64,000 nt of DNA, taken from Nymphaea colorata (lineage: Eukaryota; Streptophyta; Magnoliopsida; Nymphaeales; Nymphaeaceae). This document shows positions 17,217 to 26,200 of the stretch, piece after piece. The position numbers and the translations under genes are program-made. The DNA lies in the NCBI RefSeq assembly GCF_008831285.2, contig NC_045143.1, positions 16,218,464 to 16,282,463 of the forward strand, in the 5' to 3' direction. The notes under the pieces were generated by a model. That model did not search any database. It was not told the origin of the DNA and saw only the letters and a program-made list of their open reading frames with translations. Within the stretch, counting starts at the first letter, position 1; each line of letters opens with the position of its first letter.

Positions 17217-20200
17217 TTACTTGGTCTTTCGACCATTCTTTGCATAGTCATTAATCAGATCCACCACATCTTTCCAGAAGTAGCCCTCAACTAAAACCCC
17301 ATCTCTAGTGAACCTGTCACGTTGCACACAAAACTCAAGATACATAAAAACGAACTAGAAGCAAAGATGCACACAAGGTGATGAATGCACAAACCATTCG
17401 GCGACACTCTTGGCGAGCTGAACAGATGCATGAGCAGAGACAGACTTTGGATCTGAACTGGCTACTGTCAGAGTGTATGTATCAGAAAATCTTGGCAGCT
17501 TGGAGGAGACCACTAAACCGGTGCTGTTGAAAGATCCCTGACCATAAAATCAAAAGCAACAAAACATATCAATATTATGACTTGCACAAGGTTTTGTATA
17601 GGAAGCATAATACTATTGGAACTTCCAGCAAACAAAAAACATAAAACATGAGGAGATGCAAGCACAATCAGCAACATCACAGGGTCATTTGTTAGTTATG
17701 CAATAATGACGACATCTGTCAATCTCTTATTAAACTTGGCATATCCATATTCACTTCCTATCCAACTACAGAATCCATTAGAATATACGGTGAGTTCATT
17801 TCACATGTATCAACAAGATTGAGCCAAAAAAACCAACAGCATCTGCTACAGCTTGAGTTCCATCTTGCCCCAACATATTCACGGAAACACCAGAAAACTA
17901 CGGAGAAAGATCAGGTGACCCAAATTCAAAAGTGACCTGAATACCCGTTTGTACTTTGTTGCATTCCATACAACTGGTTTGAAGGTCATCATCTTAGGTG
18001 AACAAATAATGACCTGATTACCTGTTTGTTGCACCCTACAACGGTTTCTGTATAACTGGTTTGGAAATCAAGATCTCATGCTTCCCATTGATTTCTTCGT
18101 CGCTTTCTGTGAAAAAGAAGCTACTTCCTAGTATTATCAGTGTGATGCTCAATGAAACCATGACATCAATCTCTGAGAAAAAAGCAGTTCTCCCAAAAAT
18201 TTCTAACCTGCGTCCATACAAATGTACTTTTGCCCAAAAAACTCTGACAAATTTGTCCTTGAACAACCTATTTTTTGTAACAGATGAGTCATCTTTCCTG
18301 AAAATAATAATTATCAGCAACCAAAGGAAACACATTTCTTTTATTTCCAGCCACACAAAAGAAACAGTCAACTAATTAGTCTACTGTCTAATCCAATACA
18401 ACTCCCTCCCCCAAACATAGACATCCTCGAGCTTTTGCTGTAAATGTGAACAGTGTAATACTGTTTTCCATTGGAAACAAAAGTTAAAGGCCTTAAATCT
18501 GTTCTCAAGAAAAGTATTGATATCTGCTTCTAGTCAAAGTAATTGACAAGACCAGCATTATCAACTGCTAATCAGAAATCACTGGGATGAACAACCTAGA
18601 CATACAAGTGGACTAAAAATGCTTTCTGAGAAGCCATTTTCACAAGTTTTACAATAGCAGCCTTCACTAGCTAATGATTATTAGGGTTGTCAAAGATTCG
18701 AGCTATTTGAGATCAACTCATCTATGCTTGACTCATTTATTCAACAGTTTGAGTTCCACTCAAAATCTCAAGAAGTTTATTTTAACGAGTAAGGTGAGCT
18801 TGACTCGCCGAACTCGTTATATTGAATCTTTCCCAACCTTACCACAAATGGTACTGTTGGCGTACCGGAAGACTTATTTAACTCATTAGGTAGGTCTCTA
18901 CTTCAAACCCACCTATTGATCCTTGAAAAAGAAACATTTTCAATGCTCAGCTCAAGGTGGCTTGAGCTTAACCAAGCCAAGCTTGAGATCTTCCAGGATG
19001 AGTTTAGCCGAGCTCGAGTTGGTGAATTTGAGGCCACGTCGTCGTTGAGTTAAGCTAGATCTGGCTCAACTCGGCCCCTGAATGCCTCTAAAGAGGCTCA
19101 ACAACACTTCAGAGTTGTACTTTTCATTCACCAGCAGCAATTTCAGGATTCATTCACAACCTATACTCAGTATAGCTCAGGAATTCTCTTCCAAATACAT
19201 AAAGAAAGTTAGGAAGCAACAAAAAGACTCAGTAGACCCAATTTAATTACAATGCATCTCGACTTGACTGCAAGTGACCCACGCATGCACAATCAGAATT
19301 TTGTATAGCCCTATTTCTAGAGGTGATTTTATCCACCTGAGCCAGAATAATATGAATCAACCTAATCCAACTATCCCATCTGAGCTACCTACAGGCTACC
19401 TATTATCTCAGATGAGGCTGATCATAATCACAACTCACAACTATCATTTTTGAAATCTTGGGTTATTCTAAGAGGAAGTGTTCTCATTGGAACAAATTGA
19501 GAATATACGGAAATCACACGAGGGAATACGAGATGCTGCACATAACGTGCTTTCTTTGAACCCACTGCCTCCCAGTTTCCGAAACTCCCTTTTTGAAGTC
19601 CTCATTCAGGCCTTGTTTCCTGTTTTGACTATCATGTACACTTGATATGATTGATAATCCTAACCAGATCCATATGTTGTGTTTTGAATCCTTTGATTCT
19701 CAAATTTCAATTATTTGAGATCTTGATTACACAGGGATAATTACTTTCTAATTAGAAAAAGGAAATTTCCTCCCTGATTAATCTGATATGTGTGCATTTG
19801 CATTTCCAAAAAAAGCTTTTCGAGATCAAGAGTCAAAGTATTTTCTGGTGAGTGACCTTTGCAATGCATATGCTTCCAAACCACTAATGTTATCCTTCAG
19901 GTGTTACACACCTACCGACAACCAGTACAAACATTTTTTTAACACTCATATCCCCAACAGGTGTCAAAGAAAAAAAAAGGAGATAGCATGATGATGGCAT
20001 CAAAGAACTTGTTTTGACATTCTTGCTTGAGGATGATGGTGGTCGTTGTGACAGTTAGGACATGAATTTTGATACCAATGATTTTGTATTTGGTATAACA
20101 AGACCGAGAATGGAGGCGACAGTGGTAGCCAACCTACGTGACTATTTTTTTGAAGAGATCTCATGTTTGGGTGACTGAACAGCCGCAATTCTCTCACGTA

Positions 20201-21748
20201 AGATTGCAGCCATGTGGTTGACGGAGAAAATCCAACTCATCCCCATACATGAACTGAGCAAAACGATACACTTGAACAGCATGTTTTGAGTTAGTAATTT
20301 TCAAATAAGAAACAATACATGAAGTTACACCTGATAGCTTAAGAAATGACATGGTAAACATGCTTAAACTACGTCATTGCCAGTACATTGATTTACAGGA
20401 ATGTTCTTAATAAAGGGCAACATGATAATTATGTAGGCCACGAGCTCTAACCTGCAGGTTGAAGATTTTCCTGATAAAAATATCTGCCCCATTTGCAGAG
20501 TAACCCCCTCCCCCACCCCCAAAAAAAAAAAAAAGTATCTCTTCTGAGACAAGTCTTTGGTTGCACTGGACCGAGAGACTCTACCTATATCTGGCTTAGT
20601 CAGAAGTTTGTCCTCTATGACCGGAAACCCAGCATAAAACAAATCCATTCCAACTTACTTGACAAAGGTATATCAGCAAGACTAAAAACCCAACATAAAG
20701 CAACTTATATTCCACCATATGTGACAAACGTATACTATCTGGGACCAAAATGCCCAACATAGAACAAATCCTATTCCACCTTATGTGACAAAGGCGTCAT
20801 CATCTGGAAACAAAAACCCCAACATAGAACAAATCCTATTCCACCTTCTGTGACAAAGGCATCTTGACTGAAGATAACAACTGTCTAAACTGTACAGTGA
20901 GATCCAAGATACTGTAATATGCAATAATAGCATACAACCATTGATTGATTTTTCATATCAAGTTGAGAAAAGGAAAAGCAAAAGACATCATATATATAAA
21001 TACAAAACTTAAGTCCATCAGAATCATTATTCAAAAGATAGAAAGCATCGCACATTTTCAAAACATATGAGTCGTCTTCCGATCAAAATCAATTCAAAAG
21101 ACTTACGGTCGGGGGATATGTAAAAAGTATCGCATTCTTCTCCTTGGTGTAAATGATCAACTGCAACAGACCGTTGAAGATCACATACTTGCCAGAGTCA
21201 AGCTCCACAAAAGCTAGTTCAGACCAAACACGAACACAAGTACATAATACTTTCACAAAACACGAATATAGTGAATTGACGGAATGGGCCGCAAAAAGGA
21301 TATAATATGATGCAAACAATGAGAAAATCCCGATTGGCCGGGAATTTCTTAGGATAGAACTGTGCAGCCAGCGCAATGGCTATGATGATTACGCCGATTA
21401 ACAGCTTGATGTTACTCAACCGCACATCCTCCGCATACCCTTGGCTCGTCACGATCTACAAATATGCAAATCGAAATTTCTTTTTGTCATTCCAATCTCA
21501 CCAAAAGAACGCCTAGATAGTCTAATACAAGAGAATCACCACAAACCCTACAGATCTTGCAGACAAGAACCCCGATCGGGAAGATGACGATCTAAGGAAA
21601 CACAAAACCCTAGATAGAACGAAACCTGAAAATGAAATAGATTTCAGGTTACCTCCGTGACGGTCTCGTCGAGGACGTGCTTGATGGCGTGAGGATCGTT
21701 GAGATTTGCTTTCTTAGGGGTCTTGGAGGGAGAGGGCTTGCTCGCCAT
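17217..21748 (-). CDS. SPC25: Signal peptidase complex subunit 2 (SPC25)
   Basis: Non-catalytic subunit of the ER signal peptidase complex. Five exons on the minus strand: 21748-21653, 21455-21304, 21188-21107, 17537-17395 and 17313-17217. They total 570 bases (189 residues plus stop), matching the usual length of about 190. A short lysine-rich cytosolic head is followed by the conserved IKHVLDETVTEIVTSQGY, two membrane helices (about 50-66 and 75-97), then TKEKNAILFTYPP. The C-terminal domain includes GSFNSTGLVVSSKLPRFS, WFTRDGVLVEGYFWKD and a lysine-containing tail, as in the plant family. Exon 2 does not end at a GT donor. It ends at ATATCCTTTTT, and frame and family sequence force an AT-AA intron (see findings). 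Intron 3 is 3.6 kb and holds the repeats. The gene is convergent with FtsH and divergent from SERRATE. Confidence 0.95.
18670..19090. repeat. Degenerate GAGCTTGACTC-rich repeat in SPC25 intron 3
   Basis: This stretch reuses short words such as GAGCTTGACTC, GAGCTCGAGTT, CTTGAGCTT and CAAGCC in both orientations. A similar word set recurs in SERRATE intron 2 (about 28130-28580), which suggests two copies of one dispersed repeat. I could not define termini or a target-site duplication. Confidence 0.45.
20627..20872. repeat. Four-copy tandem repeat (about 61-64 bp unit) in SPC25 intron 3
   Basis: Four diverged units begin near 20627, 20688, 20749 and 20813. Each contains a form of CCCAACATAGAACAAATCC, then ATTCCACCTT and GTGACAAAGGC. 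Units 3 and 4 are the most alike; unit 1 is the most diverged. No coding role is seen. Confidence 0.8.
21189..21303 (-). other. Probable U12-type intron (AT-AA) of SPC25
   Basis: This 115-base intron begins ATATCCTTTTT, a full match to the minor-spliceosome donor consensus. It carries GCTTGAC (branch A about 21198), resembling the U12 branch site TTCCTTRAY, only 9 bases before its end. The end that restores Leu-Tyr-Val-Ile-Phe-Asn-Gly is ...GGCAA, giving AT-AA termini. There is no usable GT donor in the right frame. It is phase 2. Confidence 0.75.
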
Positions 21749-23257: not shown

Positions 23258-26200
23258 ATGGCGGAGGTTATGGATATGCCTGCAGAAGCCCTAGATCGTG
23301 GACAGGAGAGGCAGACAGACCGGAAGGATAAGACATCCGAGGAACTACCGAGGAAGAGGGACAGGGACTCGAGGGAGAGGAGGGACGAGCGGGACTCTAA
23401 CCGGCGAGGCGAACATTACGAGCGGAACCGGTCTCCGTCAAGGGACCGAGACAGGGAGTACAGGCGGCGGAGCAGTCTTAGCCCTCCACCTTACGTCTCA
23501 CGGGAGCGCTGGCATTCTCCTTCTCGTCATTCCCCTCCACCGTTCAAGCGTGGCCGGAGGGGTGATGGACACGATCATCGTCGGAGTAGCCCTAGGGGTG
23601 GTTTTGGTTCCGACGACGGGAGGTAGGATTTTCTTCGATTAATGCCACCTGATTGAACGTTGATCGGTGGTGCAATGGCTCAAATTGTGATTATGATGTC
23701 CCTCTGTTTCCATTTCGATTATAAGTCCTGTTTTTTTAAGTTACTGCATATTATTTTGGTTTCACTAGGTATGGCATGCTCCTTCTTCATAGAGTGTTAA
23801 ATTGTTGAGGAAACTGGAAAAAAGGACACCTCAAGGACATATTATGAGTTAGAATTGTACATGCTACTACTGGTTCAAATTGTAAGCGATAAAATGATAT
23901 ATGTGATAGAAGACTAAAAGTTTTAGGAAATGCAAAAAACAAGGATCAATAATTTTAAGAATTTTGTAGTTAAGTACGTAAATCATGAGAAACAACTACA
24001 AATAAGGCGAATGAAACACACTAGTAATCGACAATGGCCTATTTTCATCATTTTAACATAGTATAGTCAAGAAAATATTAGGAATAAACAAGTAATTAGA
24101 TATCTAATATCTTGTAGTCCAAAGGATTTGGCGGTTGTAAAATGATGGATATGTATAAGGATAACAAATGAGTGTTTAGCTACTGAACGTTTGGCGTTTG
24201 CTTTCTCAAGATCATTTTTGTCTTGTTTGAATTTCTATTAGAAAAATTATGAAAAGCATTTTTAATTTTTTGAAATAATTCAAATGTTTATTATACCTTT
24301 TTTATTAATATATTATTTATTCTTTATGTTTTTGCTTTTTCACTTCAAGATTTTGTTTGAAAAAGCCATGTATTTCTATACCGTGTTGTATGTATCTTAT
24401 GATACAACTTTTTACCTATTTTAGAATAGGTAGAAGCTGTATCTTACGTTACAGATTTATGATATAAAAAGCTGAAAGTTTTTTTTAATAATTTGAACTT
24501 CATATTAAGTCTGCCATGAAAGCGATTTTTTTCATTTTCTTTAACACTTAAAGTAAAGAAATAAAATTTAGGGCTGACTTGTGCAATTGCACTGGACTGG
24601 AGCCTTCTTGTTTTGCCACATAAGAGCCTATGACTGTCCTCCAAAACAATAACTTTCAAGTTTGTGACTATTAAGTTACTTTGGTGGAAAAAATAACCAC
24701 TCACCCGGAAAAAAAAGGAAAAAGTCGTGTTCACTAAAAACTTACTTATTGTGACACCCATTCAAGTGCCAATAGTAATTTACTTATTGTGATACCCATT
24801 CAAGTGCCAAGAGTAATTTAAGTGGTCAATTTTGATTATTGTTAGTGAAAGTCCCTATCATCCTTTGTGCAATTTTTATTGCAGATTTGGTTATGATTAT
24901 ATTGGAAGAGGCTATGATAGAGGAGGCGGGAGACCTGGGTACCATGACGAAAGGGCCCATGGGCGGCATGGTTATCAAGGTAAGTGCTGTTTGGTTTAGA
25001 AGTCAAATGATAATTGGTTAAACCGTTAAAATGTAGGGAATTTGTCTTCATAAGGTGACCCTGTATGTATACATCACTGAAGCAAGAAAATACTTGTGTC
25101 CAACTTTCATAATTCGGCGTAAAAAAATGTTGTGATGCTGTTTGTTTCCTACAATGCTGAGAACAAGTGTTTGCTATGCTATGGAGGATTCACAGAGTCC
25201 TCCCTGTAATTAATTATGCCTAATATTTAACAGATAAGATTTGTTATCTCTTCATAAATAGTAACTTTATTGATCACACCTTTTCCCAATTCATTCAGCA
25301 GGCTTCATTTTGAATATGTAAACAATAAGCGAGCTAACTTAAAATCTTGGTTGTCAAGGCGCCCAGGTGCCAGGCAGCACCAAGCGTCTAGGCAGGACTA
25401 GGCTTGCCTAGGCAAAGAAGGCGACTTTTTTTTTTTGGTTTTTTTAGCTATGTTAGCCATTACATAATAAAATTATGTAGTTGCTGACTGTATTGTAAGC
25501 TTCTATTCCAAGTAAAACTTGAAAAACTGTTATGTTCTGTTCTAATTGAATGATTATACTTTGTAAGTAAAGCCAAAAATTAAAACATAAAAAACTGTTC
25601 TGTTCTTGTTTACATGACAGATTGACAGAGCTTGTTTACATACTGGAAAACTGTGCTGTTCTGTTCTAGCTGATGCCTTAGTTTGATAGACAAAAGAAAA
25701 CACGTCATTCTTGTTTACATGCTGGACAATGCTTGCATTTCTTATAGACTAGTTATAGACCTTATATACTATTTCATTTGAATCATTCAAACAAAAATCA
25801 TATCAAATCTGTACATATAAATACATTACAAGTTTACAACAGATTGTACATGTAACATATAATATACATATAACACACAAAACACCCTCACAAATGAGAA
25901 AATAAATCTGTATTCAGGTTGCAAAAGTGAGGTCTGCATATATTTGTCTGATTACTAGACATGCACTAAACAAGATAAACTGGTGGTCTTTTTTACCATA
26001 AACTTAGGTTTTAACATGGGGTAAGAAGGCTGGCATAGGTTCTATAAAATATGTTTTAGAGCACACAAGATATATACAGAAATTCATTGGTTTTATAGAA
26101 CATGTACTTAACGTATGGTTGGAGCTTCTGCTTGATGAGTTGATATAGAATATGTAATTAACGTACAACAAACTGTACTTAAAGAACAGAAGTTATATAA

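Follow-up and report, generated by a model that had tools for sequence, protein, structure and literature searches.

Minor introns have already been described in the SPC25/SPCS2 genes of animals. In the nematode Trichinella spiralis, SPC25 (EST ES570647.1) carries a U12 AT-AC intron that reads ATC/ATATCCTTTC...TTCCTTAAC...AC/GTA, with the splice junctions shown as slashes, and the 5′ rule given for U12 introns is RTATCCTT (PMC2846911). Intron 3 of human SPCS2 is likewise U12-spliced and is mis-spliced in RNPC3 patients (PMC3958305, PMC11039992). In land plants, exon 4 of CBP20, of 34 nt in the quoted lengths, is followed by a U12 AT-AC intron (PMC5932401). Furthermore, a survey of >3000 eukaryotes found non-canonical ends in ~4% of conserved plant minor introns, almost 75% of these being AT-AA (PMC10639083).

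The SPC25 gene of Nymphaea colorata lies within the 64 kb stretch of DNA analysed here (the window). With a probability of about 0.87, its second intron is predicted from sequence to be a U12-dependent (minor) intron with AT-AA ends. This is the best reading because the SPC25 gene is intact, the donor is perfect and complementary to U11 and U6atac, no in-frame GT-AG pair restores the protein, and the nematode SPC25 provides a precedent. The gene model is as follows.

17217-21748, minus strand: SPC25 (signal peptidase complex subunit 2), complete gene, coding region in five exons
21748-21653, 21455-21304 and 21188-21107, minus strand: SPC25 exons 1-3
17537-17395 and 17313-17217, minus strand: SPC25 exons 4-5
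21456-21652, minus strand: intron 1, GT-AG, 197 nt
21189-21303, minus strand: intron 2, predicted U12-type with AT-AA ends, 115 nt, phase 2 (from frame, protein fit and donor)
17538-21106, minus strand: intron 3, GT-AG, 3569 nt
17314-17394, minus strand: intron 4, GT-AG, 81 nt

The joined exons encode 189 amino acids with the sole stop at the terminus. This product matches the Pfam SPC25 profile over its whole length (positions 1-159 of 159) at 144.7 bits, and human SPCS2 in 7p2p (chain C) with an E value of 3e-13, bearing out the gene identity given in the initial annotation. A second copy or retrocopy, from which the spliced sequence could be read directly, was sought throughout the 408 Mb genome and none was found, the matches coming from a single locus. 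Intron 4, at just 81 nt, has a weak GTTTGT donor, and intron 3 contains a tandem array at 20625-20858 with a period of about 65, 3.7 copies and 77% matches. A divergent plus-strand gene starts at 23258-23500, its first exon encoding many Arg, Asp, Glu and Ser residues (SR-protein-like).

21189-21190, minus strand: AA, predicted 3′ end of intron 2, followed by G

On the minus strand the intron 2 region reads ...ATC ATA TT/ATATCCTTTTTGCGG...GTGGAGCTTGACTCTGGCAA/G TAT GTG ATC TTC, exon 3 (G TAT GTG ATC TTC AAC) starting directly after ...GGAGCTTGACTCTGGCAA. The AT-AA join gives TTG (Leu) as the joined codon, followed by Tyr-Val-Ile. As the AA end is followed by G, an AG end lies one base downstream, the use of which shifts the frame. 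All joins between exons 2 and 3 were compared for donors 21339-21230 and acceptors 21309-21172, with the frame kept and no stop, and were scored against the corresponding segment of human SPCS2. Five registers (AT-AA, TA-AG, AT-GT, TC-TA and CC-AT) give an identical ungapped protein with a score of 63.5, and AT-AA alone among them has a known donor. Joins ending AT-GG, TT-GC and CT-TG score slightly above AT-AA through one changed residue; to our knowledge, such ends are used by no spliceosome. The best GT-AG joins reach 43.5 or lower, compared with 63.5, residues of the second hydrophobic segment being lost or replaced. Among all the frame-keeping joins listed, the GT-AG, GC-AG and AT-AC options were rejected, each damaging the conserved helix. 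AT-AA is the only join with accepted splice ends that fits human SPCS2 without gaps across the full set of frame-keeping joins. The proposal that an AT-AA end restores the conserved protein thus holds, and no GT-AG pair elsewhere in frame does the same.

21293-21303, minus strand: U12 donor ATATCCTTTTT, exact consensus

Position +1 of a U12 intron donor is A or G, and the border of exon 2 presents an RTATCCTT donor within ATATCCTTTTT. For the nine-letter form RTATCCTTT, 4 occurrences were counted over the two strands of the window, against 1.9 expected from shuffles; hence the motif by itself is not rare here and means little alone. The longer ATATCCTTTTT is found at a single place in the window, as the donor of SPC25 intron 2. 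The chance of RTATCCTTT falling at one of the five protein-allowed registers is about 7e-5 (1.88/128000 x 5; ~1e-4). In addition, the donor's UCCUUU finds a full complement in AAAGGA of this genome's U6atac, and its UCCUUUU can pair, with one G-U, to AAAAGGG close to the start of U11 from the same genome.

21197-21205, minus strand: candidate branch site GAGCTTGAC, branch A at 21198

The candidate branch A lies 9 nt before the last base of the intron, in line with the spacing noted in the initial annotation; the motif is weaker than was suggested there and provides no independent proof. GAGCTTGAC agrees with TTCCTTRAC in 6 of 9 letters (the class consensus being TTCCTTRAY, located ~8-20 nt from the 3′ end). 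Depending on how matches are scored, an equally good motif turns up at 10-23% of random positions, which is not significant alone. It was therefore not counted as separate evidence for the U12 class. The CUUG(A)CUC around A21198 can form 7 pairs, including one G-U, with GAGUAAG of this genome's U12. In the 30 nt that precede the final three bases of intron 2, 53% are pyrimidines; a polypyrimidine tract is thus absent, as in U12 introns.

The genome holds genes for U12 (one match, 88.9 bits), U11 (one match, 75 bits) and U6atac (five matches, the best 97.6), all above the Rfam cut-offs, together with CCDC84/CENATAC and a classic U12 intron in CBP20, showing that a minor spliceosome is present in the plant. 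The five U6atac-like loci (L003-L007) lie on five contigs, two being strong and three weaker; the latter may be decayed copies. Zinc fingers of the U11-48K type are also present, in a family that occurs outside the spliceosome as well. The Rfam model for U4atac had no match in this genome and was silent in the control too, and is uninformative. The minor intron reported for CENATAC itself was sought in L009, where no clear intron was made out. Intron 4 of CBP20 was found at L018:1763-2481, after an exon of 34 nt, with a ATATCCTTTC donor, a perfect TTCCTTAAC branch site and an AC end, the exons joining to read DYDPGRGGYGKL. As this intron was located by the same reasoning as that of SPC25, the reasoning recovers a known case.

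Frame, protein fit and donor together appear to require AT-AA; the TA-AG register yields the same protein. The same U12-type intron with both junctions moved one base downstream (TA-AG, 21302-21188), or spliced in any other register of equal score, would read TTA for the Leu codon; it fits human SPCS2 equally (63.5) and ends in the common AG, but has T at donor +1, a position occupied by A or G in U12 introns (RTATCCTT, PMC2846911). We consider such a shift very unlikely, in agreement with the initial annotation, which had observed that the slide still encodes Leu and breaks the donor consensus. Slightly less likely again is a major-spliceosome GT-AG intron giving a variant protein, for example 21317-21188 (GTTTGC...CAAG) or 21317-21203. 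Both are in frame, and the GTTTGT donor of intron 4 indicates that weak donors are tolerated in SPC25. However, 21317-21188 removes five residues (VCIIL) of the conserved hydrophobic segment and lowers the Pfam score from 144.7 to 123.9, 21 bits less; the fit of these GT-AG joins to the human protein is 33.5-43.5 against 63.5, the polypyrimidine tract expected of such an intron is missing, and the perfect U12 donor would have to be a coincidence.

The least probable of the alternatives is that most of the message is non-productive, either because splicing runs from the AT donor to the neighbouring AG, one base further (AT-AG, junction TTTATGTGA), or because the intron is mostly retained. The AG is adjacent to the AA, AT-AG minor introns exist (PMC8280824), and retention leads to an in-frame stop. 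The AT-AG join, however, shifts the frame so that the product ends after ...CIIFM, and the intact downstream frame of the sole SPC25 copy detected would be useless if the message were mostly non-productive.

For the predicted AT-AA intron, U11 with the 48K protein would read ATATCCTTTTT, the branch region at and around A21198 would base-pair with U12, and U6atac would take the place of U11 on the donor. A21303 would then be attacked by the branch A, and the second step would cut after AA, 9 nt downstream. In human cells, A-type introns, AT-AA included, are CENATAC-dependent and inefficiently spliced (PMC8280824), and in plants an A at the upstream purine of the branch site favours efficient splicing (PMC5932401). 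The SPC25 intron is A-type with a weak branch site, in which this purine is G, and is probably spliced slowly and dependent on CENATAC. On translation, a retained intron 2 runs into an in-frame stop after about 110 residues, and such a message would give a truncated protein of that length or be decayed. The supply of SPC25 would in this way depend on minor splicing. A further proposal, which we consider unlikely, is that splicing of this intron is tuned to be slow, through its rare AA end, the AG competing one base on and the weakness of its branch site, so that the amount of SPC25, and hence of signal peptidase, in the plant cell is set by the activity of the minor spliceosome.

The assignment of U12 class and AT-AA ends to 21189-21303 therefore stands, supported by frame, protein fit and the exact donor. 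The accompanying view that AT-AA is very uncommon is correct in that such introns are rare overall, but they make up the largest share of the non-canonical minor introns of plants (PMC10639083); as minor introns of SPC25/SPCS2 are also known in animals, that wording overstates the novelty. In practical terms, the outcome is a corrected SPC25 gene model in this genome. Intron 2 also illustrates clearly the kind of minor intron that would be misplaced by annotation programs expecting GT-AG or AT-AC ends. A literature search for At2g39960 with 'intron' gave no paper.

Among the described systems, the intron closely resembles that of Trichinella, being in the same gene with an A-type U12 donor (ATATCCTTT in Trichinella) and a junction of ATT/../GTA against ATC/../GTA. 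The Trichinella intron differs in its AC end and perfect TTCCTTAAC branch site, as opposed to the AA end and 6/9 branch site of Nymphaea. It would also lie in phase 2, splitting a Ser codon before Tyr, which matches Ser-Tyr in human SPCS2 and Leu-Tyr here. Human SPCS2, compared here by intron class, belongs to the same gene family and similarly has a single U12 intron among U2 introns. These parallels suggest that animals and plants share a U12 intron in SPC25; the common ancestor then probably had the intron, the 3′ end having changed (AC in the nematode, AA here). CBP20 intron 4 (PMC5932401) shares the donor class, genome and machinery, and differs in its AC end and perfect TTCCTTAAC branch site; the plant AT-AA minor introns (PMC10639083) share both terminal dinucleotides and donor class. 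SPC25 intron 2 is thus one more case of a known kind, in a gene family with known U12 introns in animals.
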